From Oryzias latipes (taxonomy: Eukaryota > Chordata > Actinopteri > Beloniformes > Adrianichthyidae), in assembly GCF_002234675.1 (NCBI RefSeq), contig NC_019865.2, forward strand, positions 2,232,958 to 2,296,957: DNA of 64,000 nt. Direction: 5' to 3'. How positions within the stretch are numbered: position 1 is the stretch's first letter; each line of letters starts with the position of its first letter. Below, piece after piece: positions 22,953-53,335 of the stretch. Below the pieces are notes generated by a model. The model did not search any database, had not been told where the DNA came from, and saw nothing but the letters and a program-made list of their open reading frames with translations. The position numbers were made by a program, and so were the translations under genes.

Positions 22953-23597
22953 CTAATGCCCGGCAGACATGCTCGACCAGGCCCCCTCCATCCTCCAGAC
23001 AGAGAAGGCGTAGCTCAGTCTCTCGTGGGCCAGGTAGTTACATCCAGCCAGCTTGGAGTCCATCTGGTCGCTCTGCAGAACCTGGTACAGGAAGTCTATG
23101 TAACGAGACGCCAGCTTGAGGGTCTGGATTTTGCTCAGTTTGTCGGATGGCAGCGTGGGGATGATCTTTCTCAGCGAGGCAAACGCCTCGTTGAGAGACT
23201 GTGTCCGTTGGCGCTCCCGGATGTTGGCAATGACCCGCTGGGCATGGGGGTCCTCGAGGGCTGAGAGACCTCCGGGACTGTTAGCAGGAACAGGCGACAG
23301 GGACGGGCCGGAGGAGGAGGACGGGTGCTGAGGGCTTCGTTTGAGCCTCTTTGGACCAGACGGGGAGTAGACCTGAAAACCGTCGCCGTCTTTGACCTGG
23401 TTGTCCACTGAAGAGGGCGGGGTCACCGGGGTGAGGTCATCCTCTGTGTGGGAGCCCATCTGACGTTTGCGTCCAGTGAGCCCCGGGGTTGCTACGACAA
23501 CGGGACAGGTGTTAGAAAAAGGTTTCCCCGTCTTCCCTTCACTGACAGCCACCCTTTCTTCAGGGTGCTCATTGCGAGATGCCTGCTCCTTTCTCAT
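22953..23597 (-). CDS. twist3: Twist-family bHLH transcription factor (twist3)
   Basis: This is a nuclear E-box-binding regulator of mesoderm, skeletal and neural-crest mesenchyme that dimerises with E proteins. One exon, 214 residues. The bHLH domain spans about residues 120-175, with the basic segment [17 protein letters not shown] and loop [12 protein letters not shown] nearly invariant in the family. The C-terminal Twist box (WR domain) occupies the last 26 residues and contains [13 protein letters not shown]. The N-terminus is long and divergent, with basic clusters (GRKRQ, PKRLKR) that fit nuclear localisation signals. The start is the first in-frame ATG; the frame runs open a few codons further, but only through a TTG. 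The tail reads WSSMSAGH, one Ser longer than the usual WSMSASH. Paralogue choice rests on linkage to hdac7 and on the N-terminus lacking the Gly-rich tract of Twist1. Confidence 0.88.
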
Positions 23598-23972
23598 GCT
23601 TTGCCACAATATCCTCTGTTTCTGCAGACTGTCCCAAAGTCCTCCAAACGTGTCCAGAACCTCTCTGTCTGCAGCCCCCTCAGCTCCACCTGAGGAACCT
23701 TCCCCTGTTCTGCTCGTCCTCAGAAGTCCACTCTTCTGTACTTCTCTCTGGTCTGATCTTCTGCTCCGCCGCGCCTCTTCTTCTCCATCCAGCGTTCAGC
23801 GTGTTGCATCCAAACGACCCGACGAAGTCCTCAGGTTTGGGTTCTTCATCCTCACGACTGAAAAATCCATTCAGGCCTCTGTAAACGAACACACACTGTG
23901 GTTTTTTTTTTGTATTTCTGCTCCCTGCTCCTGCTAAAAAGCATGTGAAAGAGCAGCTACATGGATCCCACT

Positions 23973-28770: not shown

Positions 28771-29755
28771 CCATGCATCCATCCATGCAACCATTCATCC
28801 ATGCAACCATCCATCTACCCATCAATGCATCCATCCATGCATCCATCCATCCATGCAACCATCAATTCATCCCTTGCAACCATCCATGAATCCATCCATC
28901 CATCCATCTACCCATCAATGCATCCATCCATCCATCCATCCATGCATCCATACAACCATTCCATCAATGCATCCATCTATCCATCCATCCATGCATCCAT
29001 ACAACCATTCCATCAATGCATCCATCCATTCAACCATCCATGCATCCATACAACCATTCCATCAATGCATCCATCTATCCATCCATCCATGCATCCATAC
29101 AACCATTCCATCAATGCATCCATCCATTCAACCATCCATGCATCCATACAACCATTCCATCAATGCATCCATCTATCCATCCATCCATGCATCCATACAA
29201 CCATTCCATCAATGCATCCATCCATTCAACCATCCATGCATCCATACAACCATTCCATCAATGCATCCATCCATGCATCCATACAACCATTCCATCAATG
29301 CATCCATCTATCCATCCATCCATGCATCCATACAACCATTCCATCAATGCATCCATCCATGCATCCATCCATCTACCCATCAATGCATCCATCCATGCAT
29401 CCATCCATCCATGCAACCATCAATTCATCCGTGCAACCATCCATGAATCCATCCATCCATCCATCTACCCATCAATGCATCCATCTATCCATCCATCCAT
29501 GCATCCATACAACCATTCCATCAATGCATCCATCCATGCAACCATCCATGCATCCATCTATCCATCCATCCATCCATCCATGCATCCATACAACCATTCC
29601 ATCAATGCATCCATCCATCCATCCATACAACCATTCCATCAATGCATCCATCCAACCATCCATCCATCCATCCATCCATGCAACCATCCATCCATCCATC
29701 CATGCAACCATCCATGCATCCATGCATCCATCCATCTACCCATCAATGCATCCCA
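28771..29755. repeat. CATC-type satellite with higher-order structure
   Basis: Almost a kilobase is built from CATC/CCAT words. It is not a plain microsatellite: a 17-base module, acaaccattccatcaat, recurs 12 times, separated by blocks with 'catctatccatccatcc' or 'catccattcaaccatcc', and a 'ctacccatcaatgcatcc' block recurs less often. The lack of stop codons on the + strand creates long spurious open frames rich in His, Pro, Ser and Ile. Confidence 0.95.
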
Positions 29756-29880
29756 TCACCAAGTATGAATGAGGACTGAATGAATAATGAACACACTGTA
29801 AGCACTTTGAGCACCAAGAAAAAAGCGCAGACACATCGAATCCATTATTACATCGAATCAACTTCCGGTTCCGGGTGACG

Positions 29881-30185
29881 TAGTACTTAAGTAATTCATC
29901 TTTGGCATGTGTTTTATTGATACCTTATGATTATTAATTCTGTCTGATAAAACCTAGGAACCGGATATTGATAAATCATGTAATAAAATGGTTATAGTAT
30001 AACGGGGTGGGATTATATAAGTTCGCTTCCTTCCACTCCCTTTCAAGCAATATTTATTAATCATGTCTAATTATCCTAAGTTTGATTAGTTACCGTATGA
30101 ATGTATAACTGATGATTATATTGTTTTTGTGTATTATTATTTGATTGCTTGAAATAAACCATTTCAAATCAAATCAAATCAATTA
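29881..30185 (+). repeat. LINE-like 3' tail, + orientation (copy 1)
   Basis: The tail ends in 'gcttgaaataaaccatttca' followed by repeated ATCAA units, like the terminal repeat of a truncated non-LTR retrotransposon. The same sequence, diverged but alignable throughout, lies inverted at 35888-36180. The segment before it (29770-29850) has a 'cactttgagcaccaag' motif resembling another retroelement tail. Confidence 0.7.
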
Positions 30186-31600: not shown

Positions 31601-31635
31601 TTCCTCTCGTTTGCGCAGCTGCCGCCGGTCGAACT

Positions 31636-31906
31636 GCGGCTCCGTGGAGGAGCCGTCACCACGCATGCGCGAGCAGGAAGCGGTTCTGTGGAGGAGCCGT
31701 CAGTACGCATGCGCGAAAATGAAGCGCTTCATAAATCCTTGAAGTCATAACGTTTGTGACGCAGCACGTGACACATCGTGTCACGGAAGGTCACATTAGG
31801 TCATTCAGACAGATGACGGCATATTGTGTCATTACTACGATTGTTTAGCACGTCATTACGATTGTTTCTAAGGTCATTCAGCATCAGATGAGAGCATGTG
31901 ACGTCA
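31636..31906 (+). promoter_or_regulatory. Candidate promoter: duplicated NRF1 sites, E-box, CRE
   Basis: A 44-bp unit is tandemly duplicated (31636-31679, 31680-31723), and each copy carries acgcatgcgc (31661-31670, 31705-31714), the core of an NRF1 site. Downstream are CACGTG at 31765-31770, a palindrome tgacac-atc-gtgtca at 31769-31783, several TCATTACGATTGTT-like words, and a perfect CRE, TGACGTCA, at 31899-31906. No good TATA box is seen. The array lies 160-430 bp before the start codon at 32064. The assignment as promoter is inferred from position and motif clustering. Confidence 0.5.
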
Positions 31907-32063
31907 TCTAATACTGTCAGCAACATCGCCAAATATAACCGCCTGAACTCACAGAGTAACCGAGAGAAACGAGGGAAAGAGAGTAAAAAAGAGAACTGAA
32001 GCGACAAGAAAGACTAAAAGCAGCAAAAGAACAGTTCCAGAAATTCTAAAAGAAAGTTTGAAA

Positions 32064-35000
32064 ATGTCTCTGAAAGAAATCAGCCAAAGTACGGAGACAA
32101 TCCTGACCCAGAACTCCATCATGGTCAGCCAGATGGAAAAGATTGGAAAAAATCTGTCCAACATGAAGGATCTGGAGAGCACCCGCAAGAACCTGAAGAG
32201 GGAGAGGAAAGCTGCTGCTCAGAAAAACAAAGAGCTGCTGAAATCCCTGGAGACCCTGAACACACAAGTTCAGCAGCAGATGAAGATCCAGGAGAAATGT
32301 GAGGCAGAAAGACAGACAATCGCTGCCTTCTCTGAGAACATCCGTGAAAGCAAAGAGGAAATGGTGGCTCTGAGGTCCAAACTCTGGCTGGACGCAGAGC
32401 TGAAACTGGAGCAGGAGCGGGTGAAACAGGAGAGGAAAATCATGGAGAAGAAGTCTGCAGTTCTGAAAGCCGAGCTGCAGAAGCTGCAGAAAAAGGTCGG
32501 CCACCAAGCCGTCCTGGAAATGGACTACAAACTGGAGTTCAACCATTTCCACGCTCTGGAAGAGGAGACCGCCGCTCTGAAAACGGAGCTTCAGAAGCTG
32601 CAGACAGAAATCCTGGAGCGAGACCAAATGAGAGAAGAGTTCCCCGCCATGGTTGAAGAACAATACCGTTTGGAGGAACTAAAGAAAGAGCTGCAGGCAG
32701 AGCTGTCCCAGCTGAGAGAGCAGCCCAACGACGCCATCCAGCTCCGCATGCTGCACCAGAGACTCAGCCTGGAGCTGATGCAGCTCAGAAAAGAGACCAA
32801 AGACCTGCAGAGGAGACGGGAAGGAGTCCAACGCTCCTCTGAGGAGGTGGAGGAGCTGCAATCTGCATGTCAGCATCTCCAAGCAAAGACCAGGGAGGCG
32901 TTCCAGATCAACTCTGACCTCACAGAGGAAATCACCAGACTGGAAAATGAAATCTCACAGCTGAAAATTCAAGAAGCTAGAGGTCAGGAGTGGACTGAAG
33001 AGCACAACAAGCAAAAGGCTGAAGCAGATGTTCTTCAGCTGGACTACCAAGAACTCCAGAAAACCAAGGAGCAGCTGACAAAGTCCATCAAGAACATGAA
33101 AGCTCTGCAGTCTGCATGTCAGAAACATCAAGCCAAAAACAGGAAAGCGGTCCAGATCAACTCTGACCTCTCAGAGGAAATCTCCAGACTGGAACAGGAA
33201 GTCAGTCATCATTTGGATTTGGAGGACAGAGTCTGTGCCGCCAGAGAGGAAAGTGAGAGGATGGAGAAGGAAACTGTCATCCTTCAAGGAAAAATCCAAG
33301 ACCTGCACCTCCAGATGCAGCAGTTCCAGCAGCAAACGGAGGTTCTGCAGCAGGAACGTCAGACGCTGCAGAACCGACGCCACCAAAGAGACCAGATGAG
33401 GGAGGAGTACTCCAGAATGCTGGAGGACATCTGCTGCCTGCAGGACCAGCAGGCAGGTCTGGACACGGAAATCTCACGCCTGAAAGTGGAAGAGATTGAA
33501 GCTCAGGAGTGGATGGAAGAGTTCAAGAAGCAAAAGGCTGCAGCAGATGTTCTTCAGCTGGAGAACCAGGACCTCCAGAAAACCAAGGAGGACCTGACAG
33601 AGTCCATCAGGAACATCCTCACAGACCAGGAGGAAGCAAGCCTGCACGAGCCTTCATCCTCCTCTTCATCAGGCATCCAAAATGATGAGGAGGTCAGTTC
33701 TGATGAAGAGCTCCAGCATCCTTCTGATGATGAAGAGTCTGTGAACTCCATTAAAAGAACAGTCTCCATCAAAGAAATGAAGGTTTTTCTCTCTTCACTG
33801 ACTGAGGAAGATCAAGAGAAAAATGTGGGGGATGAGGAATGTGAGGAGGAGGAGGATGAGAAAGTCAGTTCTGATGAAGAGCTCCAGCATCCTTCTGATG
33901 ATGAAGAGTCTGTGAAGTCCATTAAAGGAACAGTCTCCATCACTGAAATAAAAGCTTCTGTCTCTTCACTGACTGAGGAAGATCAAGAAAAACATGAGGA
34001 AGATCATGAGGAATATGAGGAAGATGAGGAGGAGTATGAAGACATCAGTTCTGATGAAGAGCTCCAGAACACATCAGACGATGAAGAGCTCCAGAACACA
34101 TCAGACGATGAAGAGCTCCGGAATCCTTCGGATGATGAAGAGTCTGTGAAATCCATTAAAGGAACAGTCTCCATCATTGAAATAAAAGCTTCTGTCTCTT
34201 CACTGACTGAGGAAGATCAAGAGAAACATGAGGAAGATGATGAGGAATGTGAGGAGGAGGAGGAGGAGGATGAGGAGGTCAGTTCTGATGAAGAGCTCCA
34301 GAATCTCTCAGATGATGAAGAGTCTGTAAATTCCATTATAGGAACAGTCTCCAGCATTGAAATAAAAGCTTCTGTCTCTTCACTGACTGAGGAAGATCAA
34401 GAGAAACACGAGGAAGATGATGAGGAATGTGAGGAAAAGGAGGAGGAGGAAGAAGTAAGTTCCGATGAAGAGCTCCAGCATCCTTCTGATGAAGAAGAGT
34501 CTGTGAAGTCCATTAAAGGAACAGTCTCCATCACTGAAATAAAAGCTTCTGTCTCTTCACTGACTGAAGAAGATCAAGAGAAACATGAGGAAGATGATGA
34601 GGAAGTCAGTTCTGATGAAGAGCTCCAGAATCCTTCAGATGATGAGGAATATGAGGAAGAGTGTGAGGAGGAATATGAAGGGGATGAGATAGAATATGAG
34701 GACATCAGTTCTGATGAAGAGCTCCAGAACACATCAGACGATGAAGAGTCTGTAAATTCCATTAAAGGAACAGTCTCCATCAAAGAAATGAAAGTTTCTG
34801 TCTCTTCACTGACTGAGGAAGATCAAGAGAAACATGTGGAAGATGAGGAATTTGAGGAGGAGGAGGAGGATGATGAGGAAGTCAGTTTTGATGAAGAGCT
34901 CCAGAATCCTTCGGATGATGAAGAGTCTGTAAATTCCATTAAAGGAGCAGTCTTCATCGAAGAAATGAAAGTTTCTGTCTCTTCACTGACTGAAGAAGAT

Positions 35001-35141
35001 CAAGAGAAACATGTGGGGGATGAGGAATTTGAGGAAGAGGAGGATGAGGAAGAATTTGGCGAGGATGATGAGGAGTTTTCCGATTTTGATGAGGATTGTT
35101 TCGACTTTGAGGATCATGTTGAGGATTTCCTGGTTCTGTAA
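32064..35141 (+). CDS. Intronless coiled-coil protein with acidic tandem repeats (unrecognised)
   Basis: I do not recognise this 1025-residue protein. Residues 1 to about 540 are almost entirely heptad-like coiled coil rich in Glu, Gln, Lys and Leu. Within it a block is duplicated: LQSACQHLQAK and LQSACQKHQAK, and QEWTEEHNKQKAEADVLQL against QEWMEEFKKQKAAADVLQL. From residue 544 to the end run eight tandem units (seven full, one short) of about 57-60 residues, each opening with VSSDEELQ-PSDDEESV, then SIKGTVSI-EIKASVSSLTEEDQEKH, then a variable Glu/Asp run. SSDEE and SDDEE fit casein kinase 2 sites. The C-terminus is FEDHVEDFLVL. There is no signal peptide, membrane segment or enzymatic motif. 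The ATG is the first in frame. A scaffold or structural role is conceivable but not shown. The long intact frame, with synonymous and conservative differences between units, argues that it is a real gene. Confidence 0.75.
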   Translation: MSLKEISQSTETILTQNSIMVSQMEKIGKNLSNMKDLESTRKNLKRERKAAAQKNKELLKSLETLNTQVQQQMKIQEKCEAERQTIAAFSENIRESKEEMVALRSKLWLDAELKLEQERVKQERKIMEKKSAVLKAELQKLQKKVGHQAVLEMDYKLEFNHFHALEEETAALKTELQKLQTEILERDQMREEFPAMVEEQYRLEELKKELQAELSQLREQPNDAIQLRMLHQRLSLELMQLRKETKDLQRRREGVQRSSEEVEELQSACQHLQAKTREAFQINSDLTEEITRLENEISQLKIQEARGQEWTEEHNKQKAEADVLQLDYQELQKTKEQLTKSIKNMKALQSACQKHQAKNRKAVQINSDLSEEISRLEQEVSHHLDLEDRVCAAREESERMEKETVILQGKIQDLHLQMQQFQQQTEVLQQERQTLQNRRHQRDQMREEYSRMLEDICCLQDQQAGLDTEISRLKVEEIEAQEWMEEFKKQKAAADVLQLENQDLQKTKEDLTESIRNILTDQEEASLHEPSSSSSSGIQNDEEVSSDEELQHPSDDEESVNSIKRTVSIKEMKVFLSSLTEEDQEKNVGDEECEEEEDEKVSSDEELQHPSDDEESVKSIKGTVSITEIKASVSSLTEEDQEKHEEDHEEYEEDEEEYEDISSDEELQNTSDDEELQNTSDDEELRNPSDDEESVKSIKGTVSIIEIKASVSSLTEEDQEKHEEDDEECEEEEEEDEEVSSDEELQNLSDDEESVNSIIGTVSSIEIKASVSSLTEEDQEKHEEDDEECEEKEEEEEVSSDEELQHPSDEEESVKSIKGTVSITEIKASVSSLTEEDQEKHEEDDEEVSSDEELQNPSDDEEYEEECEEEYEGDEIEYEDISSDEELQNTSDDEESVNSIKGTVSIKEMKVSVSSLTEEDQEKHVEDEEFEEEEEDDEEVSFDEELQNPSDDEESVNSIKGAVFIEEMKVSVSSLTEEDQEKHVGDEEFEEEEDEEEFGEDDEEFSDFDEDCFDFEDHVEDFLVL
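33693..35141 (+). repeat. Coding minisatellite: eight acidic repeat units
   Basis: These are DNA-level tandem repeats inside the coding sequence. Each unit begins near 'gtcagttctgatgaagagct' and contains 'tcttcactgactgaggaaga'. Units differ in length mainly through GAG/GAT/GAA runs, and unit three contains an internal triplication of a 'tcagacgatgaagagct' segment near 34070-34130. All changes keep the frame. Confidence 0.9.
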
Positions 35142-35149
35142 GGATTTAG

Positions 35150-35330
35150 GTTATTTTATTAGATATCTAGTAGGAAATAAAACATTAGAGACATTTTTAG
35201 ATTATTAGAAAATAAAAAATGAGAGACATTTTTAGATTAGTAGGAAATAAAAGTTTAGAGACATTTTTAGATTACCAGTAGGAAACAAGAAATTAGAGAT
35301 ATTTATAGAATATTAGGACATAAACATGAA
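35150..35330 (+). repeat. 35-bp tandem array carrying poly(A) signals
   Basis: Four to five copies of a unit like 'taggaaataaaacattagag' plus 'acatttttagatta' start nine bases after the coiled-coil gene's stop codon. AATAAA recurs at 35176-35181, 35211-35216 and 35246-35251, exactly 35 bp apart; the next copy has mutated to AACAAG. The first signal lies 35 bases after the stop. Confidence 0.85.
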
Positions 35331-35887
35331 GGAATGTACAGGGTGCACTCAGCCTCTAAGTTTTGTTCTTAATTCCAAACAGAAGGAATTCCTAAAATGT
35401 TTTTATCATAAAGTTAGAAAAATGCCTTTTTGTTCATTGAAATCTTTTTCATTTCTTTTATTTATTTTTTATGCCAAACACGTTATTAGTCAAACAGTGT
35501 TTATCCATTTAGGACTTTAAACCAGATCCTCTTCCAGGGAAGTGGAACCTTCAACCCAACCTTCTTTAACTAAAATTGCCGTCACTATGGTAACCGGCAA
35601 ACACACTGAAGGTTCTTGTTGAATGGAAGTCACAGCAGTCGTTCCCGCTCTAATGCTCTTTGGATTAGCGCTGTGGCTTCACTGGAAGAGGATCCAGTTA
35701 GCACGGGTTCTCTCCGGGCGCTCCGGCTTCCCCAGATCCAAAAAGAATTGAAGAGTTTGAGAAAATGTGATTGTCAGCATAGCCAGGACAGTAAAGCAAG
35801 GCATTAAGCGCTGGCTGCTTTATCGCTGCACCACCACACACCTCTGTTGGAATGAGTCAATAGCCTAATACAACATTTGTAAAGTGA

Positions 35888-36180
35888 TTTGATTTGATCT
35901 GAAATGGTTTATTTCAAGCAATCAATAAGAATAATACACAAAAACAATACAATCATCAGTTATACATTCATCCAATGACGAATCAAACTTAGGATCATTG
36001 GACATATTAATAAATATTACTACTAAGGGAGTGGAAGGAAGCAAATGTATATAATCCCACCCCAGTTTTACCATTTTATTACATGATTTATGTTTATCTG
36101 GTTCATAAATTTGATCAGACAGAATTAAGAATCCTGAAGTATCAATGAAGCACATGACAAAGATGAATTACTTAATTATT
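35888..36180 (-). repeat. LINE-like 3' tail, - orientation (copy 2)
   Basis: This is the inverted, diverged partner of 29881-30185, with the same 'aaataaaccatttca' end and ATCAA tail. The two face inward around the coiled-coil gene. Sequence beyond it (36190-36450) contains two diverged copies of an 'agaaatc...gcaaaattatgttac' block about 120-140 bp apart, possibly more of the same element. Confidence 0.65.
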
Positions 36181-36725
36181 ATGTAAAAAATAACTATTTT
36201 AGAAATCAACATGGAAAATGCAGATCAGTTATCCAAAATATATGCAGATTATGTTACTTATAGAAGTCATGTATATGATTAATAAAATAACACTATAGCA
36301 GTAAAATAGACATAACACTGTTTCAGAAATCTTCATAGCAAAAATTGATCAAGTATCAAAAGTTAAAATATGTGCAAAATTATGTTACATTAGAAAAAAA
36401 TCATGAATCAATTTTTGGAGCAAGTGAAGTAATATCATTAGAAATCAATCAATGTAACCATTTTTAATAATTCATTACGCTTTTCAATGTTTGATTTTTA
36501 AATAGGAATCAGGTTTTTTTTGTTATAACAACATGTTGGTTCAGTCATTGAGGACAAAAAATGTTTTATTGTCAGCTACAAAGATAGCTTGCTTTGATAT
36601 TTTTTATATATTATCAAAAAGAAAAAAGAAAGATCCGGAACTCACACTTCCTGCTCGAGAAAAAGTCAAAGTGCTGCTGTTTTAACCACCAGACTACAGC
36701 AAACATAACAGCATTTAAATGGAAA

Positions 36726-40098: not shown

Positions 40099-42871
40099 TC
40101 AGGAAAAGCCGAAAATGCCAAATAGATGCATCTGTATGAATTTACAAATAGCCACAAAACCCAAAGTGGTGTATGTTAGATAAAACCACAAGCAGATTAA
40201 CCTGATGATCAAACCAAATGAAATCCCTATACATATGTGATGCCATATGGTCTTCAATAAAGTCTTATTGACTAGTAGACAGTCCACCACAGGCATGGAT
40301 AATGCAGATGCAGCAGCTGCACAGAGGCTCATAAAGACACCCAGCAGTCGGCTGTGGGGAAAGGAGAAGAAAAATGCTCCTCCAGCTGCCCCAACAATCT
40401 CTCCTAACTTCCCTAGAGCAACTCTTTCTCCGCCTCCAAACGTCTGCGTTACAGCCTCAGCCGCAGCTAGCGACACCCCAGCTGCTCCTGCCACCCCCGT
40501 CAGAGCTCCAATGGTGGGTCCAGGGCCCGTGACGTGCCGCACCGAATCAATGACCATGAGAACTGCGCCGCCCAGAGCTGCGGAGCTGGCACCGATTTTA
40601 ACCGCTCCTCCTTTCTGCCATAAAACGTATGCTAATTTCCCAACATGAACCATCAGCAGTTGAAGGGTTAAAACCCAAATGAAAAGCCACGGGATCAAAG
40701 CACCGTTGGAGTTTGACCGCTCAGCGATTGGCTTTGACTGCAGGTTAAATCCACCTGTCACAATCAACATCAGCGACAAAGACAAGTAAGCCACTTTTGA
40801 GTCCGAGAGTTTTGACAAATAATATGAAATACTCAAAGCTAAGATCAGAGACAGAAATAAAGTCACATATGTTTGAAAGATCATAAAGACGATGAACACG
40901 ACTACTGAACTTGTAAAAGGTAGTAAAAATTTCGGCATTAATAGATGGCTTTTTTTGAAAAGAACATTTAAATAAAAAAGGCCAAATCCGACACGAAAAC
41001 CATCAAATATAGAAGTGAGAGTGAAGTCTATGGATACAAAAACCTCCGACGCAAAGCCCAGCATGTATCCAGTTGTAGTGACCCCCATGAGACACACGGG
41101 TCCAGCCAAAGTCGGGGCTTTTTCCACCGCTGTTTTACTGTATCTTTTTATGACCAAGCCATACATTGATGATCCAACATAGTAGCCTACAGCCAATGAG
41201 AAACATGACGTCCAAACACGGAAGTCCCCCATAAACAGTGACATAAAAATGTTGTTCACATGACTGTGGCTGGTTCTCTGAGAGGAAAGTTCTCTGGGCT
41301 TCTCCAGAATGTCTATTGGGTTTGCAACATAGTTCTCCGGGTTGTCCATGACGGATGTGTTGGTCACCAGAAGCTCCAGAGATGCGAGTAAGACCACAGC
41401 AGTTCTCCCCAGGAGGAGGCCTCCTGCCGCTGCTGAAACCAGCCCAACAAAGAAGGTGGAAACAAGGAACGGCCCATCTGAAAAGGACAAAAGAAAACTC
41501 TCAGGGAAGTGTGTGTTTGTGTGAGTCAACGTGCACAGAAACATCTTCTTGACTCACAGCAACGGAAGCAAGTGGGCAGATGGAGACGTCTGCCAAACAC
41601 AGAGGTATCAGTAGCTTCACTGGCCACTTTATTAGGCACACCTGTCCAACGGCTCTTAATGCAAATTTCTAATCAGACGACCACATGGCAGCAACTCAAT
41701 GCATTTAGACGTGTAAACGTGGTTCAGACGAGCTGCAGCAGTTCACACAAACATTAAAATTGGGGAAAGAGGGGGATTTTTAACGTGGCATGGCTGTTGG
41801 TTGTTGGTGTATTTCAGAAACTCTGGAGATTTCTGGTTCTGGGTCAACGAGAGGGGTTGCACGTTGGCGGCTCTGGCAGCAAGCACCGCCTTCAAGCGTC
41901 TTAAAGCTCGATTCATCGCAGAATTTCTAATAAAGTGGCCGGGGAATGAAAATGTTCATTTATTTAATTTAATCTGTGCCGACACATTCAGTATAAATGA
42001 TGACAGAGGTTTATTTAAAGACACCCACATTTATAAATGTTTCTCTTGTAGAGTTGTTTTCAATTACAAAGTTAAAGACTAAAAATGCAACTGAAATAAA
42101 GTCTTCTGCCAAGACAAAGTGAAAGAAGCTGAAACAGACGTCAAGGTGACAAATGCGCCACATCAAAACAATGAGACTATGGTTCGGGTGAAAACTGGAT
42201 TCTGATCGGCTGCTGGGTGTGCATTAAAAAGTGAAAATCCATAGTGAAAACGAACAAAAGAGATCCGTCATATAGCATAAATGTTTTTATATCACTGCGC
42301 CAGCTTCTTTAGAACAAACTTTAGCTTCATCCTCTGGACAAAAACAAGCAGTTAGACGTGAACTCTCTCTCTCTGAACTGATGCTTAATTTAACCCATCG
42401 TGACGACCAGCGTAAATGTCGCTTGTCCTTAAGACCATGAGTTCTGCTCATCGTACCCCCCCGGGTGAACTTTTTTATCAGCTCAGTTTCTGAGCGCGCC
42501 ACAACCCGTAACAAATAGTCCACTTTTTGTAAAAAACGTGATCTAAACAAAAAAAAAACAAGACTAAAGTACTAACTGATTGAATACTTATGCCTTTTGT
42601 AAGCGACCATATAAGCTGGATAATGGCCTGAACGCACTTCGCGTTGGACGGTTGACGTGCTTTAATTTCTGATAAAGCACACTTAAGGCCGTAATCCCTT
42701 ACTTGGAAAGATGTTGTTGTTTTAGTTTCCCGTTCCACTGACATTCTAATCGACATAAATATTACTTTTAAAGTTTTGGACTGCTATCAAGTCATTGTTT
42801 TGCACTGAAGCTAAACCACATTTACATCCAAATTCAAAGAGCAGAAACTTACCAGCATCAGGCTGACTCAT
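40099..42871 (-). CDS. Polytopic membrane protein, two exons (unrecognised)
   Basis: I cannot name the family. Exon 1 (42871-42853) encodes only MSQPDA plus one base and ends at a perfect donor, GTAAGT. Exon 2 (41477-40099) follows a good acceptor. The join completes a GAT codon, giving MSQPDADGPFLVS and a 465-residue protein. There are about 10-12 hydrophobic segments, beginning with FLVSTFFVGLVSAAAGGLLL and including SSVVVFIVFMIFQTYVTLFL and LIPWLFIWVLTLQLLMVHVG. A hydrophilic loop follows the first segment (about residues 45-80). A Gly/Ala-rich pair of helices (AALGGAVLMVIDS, GALTGVAGAAGVSLAAAEAV) lies near residues 315-365. No transporter signature or ATP-binding motif is seen. A channel or transporter-like role would be a guess. 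The frame upstream of the acceptor is also open, which makes exon 2 look longer than it is. Confidence 0.75.
41619..41946. mobile_element. MITE with 'ggccactttatta' inverted ends
   Basis: The left end, cactggccactttattaggc, and the inverse of the right end, ccccggccactttattag, match. This is a very common non-autonomous element in fish. It sits in the single intron (41478-42852) of the membrane-protein gene. The rest of that intron is unremarkable. Confidence 0.8.
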
Positions 42872-48637: not shown

Positions 48638-51600
48638 ATGTCTTCATCAAAACCAGAAGAGACTTTGGCACAGGAGCTGAGCTGCCCCATCTGCCTCCAG
48701 CTCTACCAGGATCCAGTGGTCCTCCCCTGTGGCCACAACTACTGTCGGGACTGCATCAGCAAGAGTTCTGACACCGTGGACGTCAGCAGTAAAGTGTTAC
48801 CCCGGTGCCCTGAGTGCCGCGAGGAGTTCAATGGTATGGACTCACTGCAGAAGAACTTCAAGCTGTGCAACATCATCGAGGGTTATCGCTCCAGCTCGGC
48901 TGTGAGGGAGGCCCAGTCTGACCCGGAGGTCAAATCCACCTACCTCTGTGACTACTGCATAGACAGCCCATCACCTGCCGTAAAGACCTGCCTGAAGTGC
49001 GAGGTGTCGTTGTGCTCCAGGCACCTCCAGAAGCACCAGGAGAAGGAGAGCTTCAGGAACCACTCCATGGCGCAGCCCCAGGAGGAGGTGGACGTGAAGA
49101 CCTGCATCCTCCACTGCTGCCCCCTTGAGTACTTTTGCTCCAACGACATGACCTCTCTGTGCGCCAAGTGCTTTGTGGAAGGACAACACCAGAATCACGA
49201 TGTCCTGACCTTCAGCGTCGCTGAGGAGGAGATGAGAAGAGCGCTGGAGAACCGCAGCAAGGTGAGCTACATCCCATCTGACCCTTTCACCTTAGACAAG
49301 TTCAGAGCAATGAATGAATCGGCGTGTCTATGTTCATGACAAATTAAAGTAGTTAAAAATTTATATTTTGGTCCATGCACAAACTTTGTGGATCATTTAA
49401 ATGAAGAAATCCCAACCCAATCAGAAACAGTTTGCACAGAGAAAGGTTTGCTTTAGTGCCGATGAAACGCTGAAGAACATTTCACAAGACTTTAAAATAA
49501 AACAAGAGATGGTTTGACGTTTGGTTTGCTGTGGAATGCATGCAGAGAGACAAAAGTTTTACGTAAAGATGACAGCTGAAGACTTTGTCTCCGGTTTCCC
49601 GTCTGACTGATTTTTATCAGGGAAAAGAAACCTTGAGTAACGCTTATTGTCCAACCTTGTTATCGGAACAAGAATCTGAGAAATGAAAATGAGCAAAGCA
49701 CTATAAATAGATCCGGTTGTTCCAGAATTTCTGCTCCATTTTCTTCCACACAATAGACATTCGTTGCGTTGAATGTGTGTTTGCAGATTCTTTCGACACG
49801 CCTGCAGCTCACACAGAGCCTCCTGCAGAAGGTGACAAATGACCAGGGAGTCTCCGAGGCCATAGCAGAGAAAATCGTCAACAAGGCAGTCTCACTCATG
49901 GACAGCATTGTGGGACTGGTGGACAGGTAACAGAAGGACGGTCTCCACATGATGCACACCTGTATTGTGCGGTGTGTAAACCTTTAGTCACAGGACAGTT
50001 TTTGATGAGGCAAATAGTAGAGCTGATGAAAGTTTTGTTTTTAAAGACCCACTCCAATGAAAATTGTGTTTTTGAGATATTCTTTATTGATCCCACATTG
50101 GGGAAATTCAATTGTTACAGCAGTTCAAAAAGCAGAGAAGAATGACAGCAATGTGCAAAAGTGAGGGGTGTTCAACATGTGCAAAAAACAGAAAAAGTAA
50201 AAAAAGTAAGTAATAACTTATGTACACTATTACGACATAACGTATGTTATGCGTAATAATAAAATTAAATAAAGTAAAAACACAGAATATACAGATGGGC
50301 TTTTGGTGTTTCTAACATGTTCTTGTGTTTTTCTGATGATGGAGGACATTTATATATAAAAAAAAAGTAAGCTTAAATTAGCATTTTCTTTTAGTCTTTA
50401 TTCAAATCACTGTGAATCAGGAGCAGATGAAAAAACGCAACTTGAAAAAGTGTCTAAAATAATTTCCACACCCTTTGTTATTTTACCCCATCCTAGAATG
50501 ACTGAAATCAACGAAATGGTAAATGGCGTACACTTGTAAAGCGGTTTTCTACCTTCCCCGAAGGCCCCTAGCGCTTCAGTCACACACTGCACGGGGGCCA
50601 AGCTTCCACCAGAGGCAAGGTGGGGTTCAGTGTCTTGCCCAAGGACACTTCGACTCATGGGCAGGCAAGGCAGGTATCAAACCAGTAATCTTCCGTTCAG
50701 AGGTCGCCAAACATATAAAACGCATAAGACTGCTCATGTGAAAGTGTCCATCCTCCCCCATCCCTCTGCGGCAATGGAACATTCCGTCAACAGCAAGTAG
50801 CCAGCAGACTGAAGGTCTTCAAAGAGATTAAAAAAAACAAAAAAACAAAAAAAAAACATGGTCAAATGAAGCATAGATAACCGAGCGGCGCTGAAAATGA
50901 TCATGATCGTTGTACTGATGATGCAATAAAAGAAAAAAATGCAAACCATCTCACAGAAAATTCTAACAATGTAAGATAAACGTCAAAATCCTACTGTGCA
51001 GGAAGGAAGACAAAACACGGAAAAGAAGAACAGGTTAAAAGGAAATTAATAAAAGAAAAGTCAAGAATGAAAAAAGGGACACAAAAGGAGAGGAAATGCA
51101 AAAAAAGGGGACAAACAATGACCATTTGGAAAATAATTCTTATTTTTTTTACTGACTTCACTCCATAATGTTCTATTTTGTTCCTTCATTTAAGTATCTT
51201 TATTTATTTTAACTTCTTTGGTAAAATCTGACAAATGAAAGAAAAGACAAGACGTCATTTGTTTCTTCTGGAAAGTAACAATTCAATAAATTCAATATTG
51301 GTTTCCAAGTCAAAATAATGTACATAAAATGCATTTGCTTAACATTTAAAAGGGGTTTTGGTTCTGAAATGCGTATTAAACGTTTGGATTCTTGACATTG
51401 ATGCTGTCTAAAAGCGGAACAGTGACGAAGATATTCGACAGACGTTTTCCTATATAGGTAAGGAATTAAAAAAAAAAAAAAAAAAAAAGATGAACTGCTG
51501 CAGAGTCCCCCCCCCATGTTATTGTTCGCCCCACTGTCCCCCACTGTGAACGGCTCCAATATTGCTCGCCATTTTTTGTGGAACCAGTAAAGTTAGGGTG

Positions 51601-53335
51601 GGGGGTGGGAGGGACTGTAAGCTAGCGGGGGAGCACGTAAATGGATGGGTGATGCAAAGTGGGGGTGGGGTTGCTGCACCCCAACAGTCCCGCCCACAAC
51701 TCCTGCCGCTCTGCAGAAACTATGTTCTAAAAAAAAAACAAAAAACGTTTTTACATTTTGGCTCAAAACGGTTCCTTCTACTTCTTTCTTTCGCCTGTTT
51801 CTTCCTGTTGGGACATGGGCCGCATGCGGGGGCTCTCCAGGTGGGCCGGTCTTGGGCGAGTTCTTCCAGCTGTCCCAGCGTTTTCCCCAAGCCATCGAAC
51901 CCTGCTTCTGGATCCCGGCGCCACGTGTTCCTAGGTCCCCCCCCACGGTGTAATCATAATTAAAAGACCACTGGGAAGACTTTGAAAATAAATCAGAATA
52001 GAATCAGAGTGGGACTTTAAAGACTTCGTCACCTTTTTAAATGACAGGAGTTCACCTACCTAAATGTGTTCTTCAATTTGCAAGAGAATTTGTTTAAAAA
52101 TGTTATGTTGATTGCTGTTAAGTCCAGTTGAGGAGGAAGGATTGTCCCCCTTTACTTTTCTTAGATGGGAATAAGTGAATGGATTTGTTTTTCATTTGGC
52201 TTCGTCTTTTCTTTTCTATAATAGCTGTTGTAGTGAGTAATGGTTTCATGGGAAATAAAAGGACCTGAACATCATCAGTGATGAAGGCCAATGAAGGACA
52301 TGGACGTACGTATCTGCAGGTACAGGGACCGTCTGCTGACGGTGTTGGAGGAGGAGAGGGGGCAGCGCAGGAAAAGCACGCAGTTGGAAGTGAACGCACT
52401 GGGGGAGTCGCAGCAGCAGCTGCTGGAGATCCAGAGGAAAACTGCACAGGTGCTCAATGAGAGAGATACATGCCTCTTCATACGCAGGTAGAGCACAAAA
52501 GCCTTCCCAACTCCTTAAATGCTACTGTGTCTACACTGATTGAGCAAAAGCGCTGCAGTGTACAAGGAAACTTCTTTCATTATTGTTTTGATTTATGGAC
52601 TGTGTGCTTTTGTACCTGTTTTCCAGATTTATGATGATAGAAGAACAGCTGAGGGATGCTGTCACGAGCAATTTCTCCAACAAAATCTCCCTAAGCCCTC
52701 CAGTCAACACCAAGCGCCTGCAGACCAGCCTGAAAACCCTGGACTTCCGCTCAGAAATGACCCGGCTCATCGATGCCCTTCACATCCTCCTCAACCCGCA
52801 GGAGCTCACCTTTAACGTTTGTACCGCCCACCCCAACTTAAATGTGTCCACTGACCTGTGCACAGTCAGGTTCACCTCCAACAAGCAGCCCTACATGGAC
52901 CACCCGGAGCGCTTCACCAGTGCGCCGCAGGTTCTATGCAGCCAGGGCTTCTCCAGCGGTCAGCACGTCTGGGTGGTGGAAGTTGGGCCCAACTGCATGT
53001 GGGCCATGGGCGTGTGCTACAAGAGCATCCCACGCCGCGGTGACCACAGCCGTCTGGGTCACAACACCGTGTCTTGGAGACTCCAGTGGAAAAATGGCAA
53101 ACTCACCGTGTGCAGCTCCTCCAGTAATGTTGTGATTCCAGAGAAAAAGCCTCATCCAACCAAACTGGAGATGGCGCTGGACTATGAGGGTGGAACCCTG
53201 ACGTTCCACAGCATCAAAGGCAGCAGAGAGCACATCTACACCTTCAAAGCTGTGTTCAAAGAACCCGTTTTCCCAGCATTCAGCATTCATTCAAGCAACC
53301 CAGACTCCTGGATCACGCTTCATAATGGAATGTAG
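48638..53335 (+). CDS. TRIM-family RING E3 ubiquitin ligase with PRY-SPRY domain
   Basis: The protein is a probable cytoplasmic E3 ubiquitin ligase of the tripartite-motif family. Exons 48638-49261, 49787-49926, 52320-52487 and 52627-53335 join in frame to 546 residues. The RING spans residues 16-60, with all eight ligands (C16, C19, C31, H33, C36, C39, C57, C60). A B-box1-like zinc module runs from C104 to about H142. B-box2 spans 156-187 (C156, H159, C167, D170, C175, C178, H184, H187). Coiled coil covers about 195-330, and PRY-SPRY about 371-546, including a WVVEVG-type core. Two B-boxes plus PRY-SPRY place it with TRIM25/TRIM47/finTRIM-like proteins. Many fish members are antiviral or lineage-expanded, so I give no symbol. 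All key residues are intact and the start fits the family, with the RING close to the N-terminus. Confidence 0.88.
50075..50235. repeat. Retroelement fragment
   Basis: The segment reads 'tctttattgatcccacattg' then 'ggggaaattcaattgttac', a short fragment of a dispersed retroelement-type repeat common in fish introns. Its boundaries are approximate. Confidence 0.45.
50516..50715 (-). mobile_element. tRNA-derived SINE, second copy
   Basis: On the - strand it has the same body ('cttgggcaagacactgaacc') and tail ('acaagtgtacgccattt') as 36726-36972, with a weakened B box (GGTTTGATACC). A piece of the middle is missing relative to that copy. Confidence 0.7.

Follow-up and report, generated by a model that had tools for sequence, protein, structure and literature searches.

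We analyzed a 64,000-nucleotide stretch of the medaka (Oryzias latipes) genome, hereafter called the window, which occupies C7:2232958-2296957 in a genome of 734 Mb and 25 contigs (contigs carry the prefix C, loci the prefix L). Positions are counted from the first letter of the window. A single forward-strand frame of 1025 codons starts with the ATG at 32064 and ends with a stop codon at 35141, and it is open upstream to 31947. It is the longest frame in the window, the runner-up having 481 codons. A preliminary description, made from the letters of the DNA, had taken it for an intronless gene encoding an unrecognised protein, a coiled coil fused to acidic tandem repeats. The interval 31947-33686 keeps 580 codons open against a maximum of 301 in 300 dinucleotide shuffles, and the interval 33687-35138 keeps 484 codons open against a maximum of 227 in the same number of shuffles. 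In the coil-coding part, the synonymous-codon score was 0.186 bits per codon for the gene frame and at most 0.121 for the other five frames. The coordinates, the shuffles and the selection described below all agree with one open frame that behaves like a gene, and 32064-35141 is very probably a real protein-coding gene, as far as sequence can tell.

A dispersed family under purifying selection

A protein search of the genome gave at least 93 matches, which were merged to at least 44 loci on at least 12 contigs, the window included; these counts are lower bounds because 45 of 468 candidates were scored. In at least 38 loci the open frame reaches a length of at least 450 codons, and 31 of those 38 have no stop in any matched stretch. 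The sequences of 28 of the 43 other loci were examined, and long single frames were present in nearly all of the members examined. Because coiled coils resemble each other, homology was controlled with shuffles that keep the heptad register of each residue. All of the 15 relatives compared, down to 24% identity, matched the first 330 residues of the window protein with 59-193 bits, whereas only 23 of 900 such shuffles gave any match, the best of 25.4 bits. The comparison demonstrates collinear homology beyond coiled-coil chance and hence membership of a family. The earlier statement that the protein is unrecognised thus stands in the sense that, at the thresholds applied, it fits no named family in Pfam or PDB, but the gene is not solitary, being one of at least 44 related loci.

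In a tree of 27 N-termini, the window grouped with the copies on C1, at C7:1.09 Mb, on C2 and at C12:2.47 Mb (five rows, 100/99); 9 of the 23 inner branches were drawn open, and some long branches may have been joined falsely. Synonymous sites between the window and the member at C7:0.07 Mb were already saturated, which indicates that the family is old. The medaka genome appears to hold dozens of long single-frame coiled-coil genes without a fitting Pfam model. The whole window protein had no Pfam match at E ≤1; its coil alone gave two, both far below the cut-off, and no PDB match at E ≤0.01. Among the relatives, Pfam matches above the cut-off were DUF7491 in L016 (34.8 vs 30 bits) and DUF3097_C in L025 (37.8 vs 27 bits), each covering ~50 residues in one of ten proteins scanned. 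Weak sub-threshold matches of relatives to coil models (GM130_C, CENP-F_leu_zip, GAS, CCDC113/96) were uninformative, as were the 31 chains, mostly coiled coils, which a PDB profile search with a 14-sequence alignment retrieved at E ≤1 (best match, a myosin-7 fusion with 22.2 bits and E 7.5e-4). Literature searching by title and beginning of the abstract gave no paper on such a family; this is no proof that the family lacks annotation.

Selection on the frame, which the preliminary description had deduced from frame retention, could be assessed by counting synonymous (S) and nonsynonymous (N) differences and their ratio per site (pN/pS) against paralogues; the pairs, each involving the window, are not independent. 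Over the first 285 codons, pN/pS was 0.13 against the C1 copy (S 12, N 6, Fisher p 2.9e-5), 0.16 against C7:1.09 Mb (S 8, N 5, p 1.5e-3), 0.38 against C7:0.30 Mb, a copy with a stop (S 4.5, N 6.5, p 0.14), 0.46 against C2 (p 0.04) and 0.50 against the older C12:2.47 Mb copy (S 46, N 85, p 5e-5). In the tail, the five window pairs gave pN/pS of 0.34-0.65 with p ≤6.1e-3 (0.34 and p 1e-9 against C7:1.09 Mb), although the repeats align uncertainly and the tail of L013 is hardly alignable. The coil alignments with the C1, C7:1.09 Mb and C7:0.30 Mb copies (855 + 750 bp) were gapless, while the promoter and 3' flank alignments of the same copies contained 57-91 gap positions each and 6-9% mismatches. 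In other clades, dN/dS ranged from 0.24 to 0.98. The counts show that the coding sequence has been under purifying selection between copies, so that the claim now rests on more than an intact frame.

A coiled-coil rod and an acidic tail

The first half of the protein was modelled as four long helices at residues 3-143, 151-218, 224-324 and 330-525 (AlphaFold2, single sequence; mean predicted local distance difference test score (pLDDT) 74.6, predicted template modelling score 0.19). The preliminary description had called it strictly coiled coil, which is slightly overstated given the breaks near 144-150, 219-223 and 325-329. Hydrophobic residues showed a 3.5-residue periodicity above the 99% shuffle level in blocks 1-110, 111-220 and 331-440, but not in blocks 221-330 and 441-540 or over residues 1-540 as a whole. 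The weak signal over the long stretch would be expected if the heptad phase breaks. The internal duplication noticed earlier was recovered twice, 32856-32954 matching 33105-33203 (84%) and 32940-33097 matching 33459-33616 (82%).

The duplication is part of a longer-range order that had gone unnoticed. In a diagonal-score scan of 13 proteins against themselves, an offset of 173 residues ranked first in eight and second in L029, and L015, L031, L032 and L033 had other best offsets. When eight clade representatives were pooled, offsets of 173, 76, 38, 7 and 114 were the strongest. Period 38 exceeded all other periods from 20 to 60 in eight of nine proteins including that of the window, the exception being L035; the sample lay outside the D and E clades, which are alignable only from further in. 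The first 228 residues of five proteins could be aligned without gaps in lines of 38 residues, six per protein. Of the 30 lines, 26 have Leu in column 20 and 17 have Asn in column 17; columns 6, 13, 20, 24, 27, 31 and 37 are hydrophobic in 63-93% of lines. The common core of the family is a rod with 38- and 173-residue periodicities.

Since 38 is five heptads plus three residues, each repeat would contain one stammer, provided that the core is continuous. A stammer is a three-residue insertion which is described as strained and as overwinding the helices (PMC4786415). One stammer per 38 residues would overwind the rod locally, and such a regular repeat would be an unusual coiled-coil geometry when compared with the strained stammers of that description. 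The placement of the stammer register is soft, since the assumed core columns exceeded the best other shift by just 1-8 percentage points in the eight period-38 proteins. The rod may be a parallel, in-register, two-stranded coiled coil, because Asn recurs at the apparent a position and Leu at the next d, as such rods use. By analogy with GCN4, Asn on a with Leu on d would favour a parallel dimer.

Residues 541-1025 contain 209 acidic and 29 basic residues, that is, a net charge of -180 over 485 residues. The tail had been described as eight tandem repeats that keep SIKGTVSI. There are indeed eight [VI]S[SF]DEELQ boxes, but only seven complete cores and seven SSLTEEDQEK boxes, and SIKGTVSI is exact in four of the seven units. 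The frame is kept across the changes in unit length as claimed, the copy spacings of 171, 234, 180, 177, 249 and 177 nucleotides all being multiples of three. CK2-type S/T-x-x-D/E sites, which had also been pointed out, comprise 49 of 85 Ser/Thr residues, whereas shuffling the tail sequence gave 36.5 ± 4.2 (p 0.0015); they are thus more frequent than in shuffles, but the enrichment beyond composition is modest.

The number of units varies among the six copies of the window clade. Exact SSLTEEDQ boxes, variants being uncounted, number seven in the window, four in L010, three each in L009 and L012, two in L011 and none in L013. The end peptide has been retained by four of the copies (the window, L009, L010 and L011) but not by L012 or L013. 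The array was not seen in those members of the B, C, E and F clades whose sequences were read, nor in L035. It is thus a clade-specific add-on of variable copy number and not part of the family core. L031, a member of another clade, carries at 567-1185 its own acidic, Ser-rich coding minisatellite with 4.9 copies of a 126-nt unit encoding 42 residues; L015 and L029 were also read as acid-tailed. Acidic tails may have been gained more than once, as the unit of L031 differs from that of the window. A long, largely disordered and polyanionic tail with many CK2-type sites would act either as an electrostatic brush or as an array on which basic partners dock; its reach would depend on how many units it has, with the rod and the end peptide staying constant. 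The tail in this clade is most likely a CK2-phosphorylatable polyanionic brush, its phosphorylation being presumed from the sites.

Several known proteins share part of this design. In type IV intermediate filament proteins such as neurofilament M/H and nestin, a coiled-coil rod precedes a long tail that is rich in Glu, can be phosphorylated and contains repeats. The window protein resembles them in its rod and acidic repeat tail; its family differs in the one open frame, the 38-residue rod repeats, the optional tail and the lack of the intermediate filament rod model PF00038. Plakin (plectin) repeats are also 38 residues long, but they are not coiled coils. Neither PF00038 nor the plakin model PF00681 gave a match at E ≤1 in the window protein or nine relatives, and membership of both families was rejected. 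Golgins, CENP-F, GAS/CCDC types and trichohyalin likewise have long helical rods with internal duplications; here no Pfam domain above the cut-off is common to the family proteins. Lineage-specific copy number, clusters and birth and death are features of finTRIMs and of mammalian multicopy germ-line coiled-coil genes. The family is like the finTRIMs in these three respects, but RING, B-box and SPRY domains were absent from the window protein in the Pfam search and TRIM/finTRIM membership was rejected.

Flanks and spread of the copies

The region upstream of the frame is rich in CpG, with an observed/expected ratio of 1.34 at 31601-31800 compared with 1.35 for the 99th percentile of 200-bp blocks in the window. 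The motif GCATGCGC, which we take to be an NRF1 site, occurs in the window only as the two copies listed in Table 1; TGACGTCA, presumably a cAMP response element (CRE), occurs twice, once at 31899. Both motifs lie within 600 bp upstream of the frame in all five clade copies submitted to the pattern test, the window included, and GCATGCGC is also visible upstream of the sixth, L011. In the same test, GCATGCGC was found in none and TGACGTCA in one of 11 members of other clades. A TATAA at -130 places the putative transcription start. Germ-line use of the gene would be our guess from the CpG-rich promoter, the NRF1-like and CRE-like sites and the multicopy intronless style.

Table 1. Positions of the gene, its coding segments and its flanking elements in the window
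Feature	Position	Strand	Remarks
Protein-coding gene (very probable)	32064..35141	+	1025 codons + stop, one open frame
N-terminal rod, six gapless 38-residue repeats (residues 1-228)	32064..32747	+	matched wholly or partly by 15/15 relatives compared
Remaining coiled coil (residues 229-525)	32748..33638	+	173-residue super-repeat and internal duplications
Acidic coding minisatellite	33684..35105	+	seven complete units
C-terminal end peptide SDFDE..(S/F)DF(E/D)D(Q/H)VED(L/F)LVL	35079..35138	+	kept in 4/6 clade copies including the window
Two 44-bp direct repeats	31636..31723	+	each with one GCATGCGC (NRF1-like), at 31663 and 31707
Palindromic TGACGTCA (CRE-like)	31899..31906	n/a	165 bp 5' of the ATG
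Probable 5' leader	31941..32063	+	without upstream ATG; A at -3 of the start codon
35-bp tandem repeats on the 3' side	35168..35324	+	three AATAAA (35176, 35211, 35246)

The match between the window and the five other clade copies spans the frame together with ~0.6-1.0 kb upstream and ~0.6-0.75 kb downstream of it. L009 and L010, two of these five, have collinear pieces still further out, interrupted by insertions. The shared promoter and 3' flank indicate that the clade copies spread by DNA duplication and not by retroposition. Eight loci lie within 2.5 Mb of a contig end, namely the six clade copies including the window, the broken relative at C12:1.63 Mb, which has five stops, and the sister at C7:0.07 Mb; the ninth locus of this group, a broken fragment of the tail at C2:6.04 Mb, is farther from the end. 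Members of the other clades are mostly internal on their contigs, some of them in tandem clusters (C19, C12 and C13), with four members ~9.8 kb apart on C19. L017, L018 and L019 are near-identical 704-codon copies ~0.43-0.5 Mb apart near one end of C14, and they are either recent large duplications or assembly copies. The segment 32919-33668 differs from L009-L011 several-fold less at synonymous sites than the adjoining N-terminal part, and its DNA is far closer to these copies than the flanks are.

Interpretation and neighbouring features

We read 32064-35141 as a functional intronless gene, a recent duplicate near a chromosome end, which belongs to an old and dispersed birth-and-death family and would encode a rod with a brush. 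We assign this reading, drawn from sequence comparison, a probability of roughly 0.6. The rod-and-brush arrangement is the likeliest mode of action, for which we infer dimerisation, phosphorylation, tissue and function; the phosphorylation-tuned scaffold suggested earlier is likewise conjectural. A more far-reaching version, which we put forward tentatively and as less likely to be right than wrong, is that at least 40 mostly single-exon genes form an unclassified fish-lineage family with a new stammer-bearing rod, independently gained tails and a germ-line rod-and-brush role. As part of the same tentative proposal, the rod would be built of a 38-residue, 11-turn repeat with one stammer and a recurrent core Asn, and of 173-residue super-repeats. 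If expressed, the family would offer a natural series of rods graded in 173-residue steps and of brushes graded in tail units, in which the effects of length and charge are directly testable.

Several results weigh against one part or another of this interpretation. The synonymous-codon score of the gene frame in the tail was -0.226, and the top score there was that of an antisense frame (0.202); the score was trained with five exons, one of which was read in the wrong frame, and is uninformative for the tail. The structural model of the tail was poor (mean pLDDT 46), each of its seven units being predicted as a strand and then a 3-7-residue helix, with disordered acidic runs on either side. 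In the rod, the share of lines with a hydrophobic residue is only 37% for column 3, 33% for column 10 and 20% for column 34, and column 17 of the window protein is Asn in only two of six lines. The 11 assumed core columns are 62-71% L/I/V/M/F/N in eight proteins compared with 58-67% for the best other shift, and in L035 the two tie at 52%. Constraint between units within the window tail is slight (pN/pS 0.63), and dN/dS reaches 0.94 for L030/L034 and 0.98 in some B-clade pairs. Residues 286-535 show no significant constraint against close copies (S 1, N 9 against C1), and constraint was significant only against C12 (p 0.01). Synonymous divergence from C1 is 1 of 150 sites in this region compared with 12 of 179 in the N-terminus, which suggests gene conversion between copies; conversion perhaps explains the missing constraint signal.

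Damage is seen in two of the six clade copies, a TAA after 154 codons in L011 and AGG in place of ATG in L013, and 7 of the 38 long-frame loci have a stop in some matched stretch. Such decay raises the alternative that the window copy is itself a duplicate that is decaying or does not code for protein, and that has an open frame only because its recent ancestor had one. This is very unlikely, since in comparisons of the N-terminus with two copies the synonymous differences per site are 6-8 times the nonsynonymous ones, at a synonymous divergence (0.05-0.07) near that of the flanks, and 1605 coding bases are gapless; the constraint dates from the split of the copies and would be compatible with a loss that is very recent and confined to the window copy. 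The single frames of nearly all members would also be accounted for if the founder of the family had been a processed retrogene of a multi-exon coiled-coil parent. We regard that origin as unlikely, because the window clade spread with its promoter and 3' flank, hence as DNA, and the 93 matches, from the 45 of 468 candidates scored, included none that could be recognised as a multi-exon parent. The dispersal of the copies and the inverted pair of 300-bp repeats on both sides of the gene, at 29878-30184 and 35882-36184, could instead suggest that a mobile element or a virus carries the gene. The pair, however, reads as two inward-pointing LINE-like (long interspersed nuclear element-like) 3' ends without matching outer ends, collinear homology passes the right-hand repeat in two of five copies, broken by insertions, and members form tandem clusters such as that on C19. 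A viral-contig scan with one protein query, able to detect close relatives only, left all 28 pattern matches unconfirmed. Carriage by such an element is thus improbable in the extreme.

The last alternative concerns function. Acidic tails of histone chaperones bind cationic proteins, and the product could be a chromatin- or basic-protein-binding germ-line factor, whose coil would multimerise and whose acidic repeats would bind histones, protamines or other cationic proteins. The net charge of the tail fits this proposal, as do the acidic runs placed, in a low-confidence model, around a short strand/helix motif in each unit; the promoter type and the multicopy intronless habit would suit germ-line expression. 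On the other hand, the array is missing from the clades and from L035 as described above, and the two damaged copies retain two and no exact units. Since the array is so patchy across the family, binding by the tail would not be the common function, and we consider this proposal doubtful. The functional, recently duplicated rod-and-brush gene is the preferred reading.

The two repeats that flank the gene lie on the plus (29878-30184) and minus (35882-36184) strands, are 84.8% alike, end in AATAAA and ATCAA tails and mimic terminal inverted repeats. We read them as LINE-like 3' ends, a repeat library not having been searched. A transposon bounded by this pair is considered improbable, as its outer ends are unmatched; target-site duplications were not searched around every copy. 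At 28771-29753, an imperfect CCATCCAT array of ~1 kb gives rise to open frames of 250-351 codons, which most likely do not encode protein. The 481-codon frame at 40099-41544 on the minus strand is hydrophobic, with the look of multiple membrane spans; it gave no Pfam match at E ≤5 and no PDB match at E ≤0.1, and it is possibly another single-exon gene. On the plus strand at 48638-53335, Pfam detected a RING/B-box frame (48638-49336) and a PRY-SPRY frame (52595-53332), which probably belong to one TRIM gene that we take to be finTRIM-like. The frame at 22956-23795 encodes a Twist-type basic helix-loop-helix protein with a Pfam HLH match, presumably twist3, and 2369-2755 is presumably a class IIa HDAC-like exon of hdac7.

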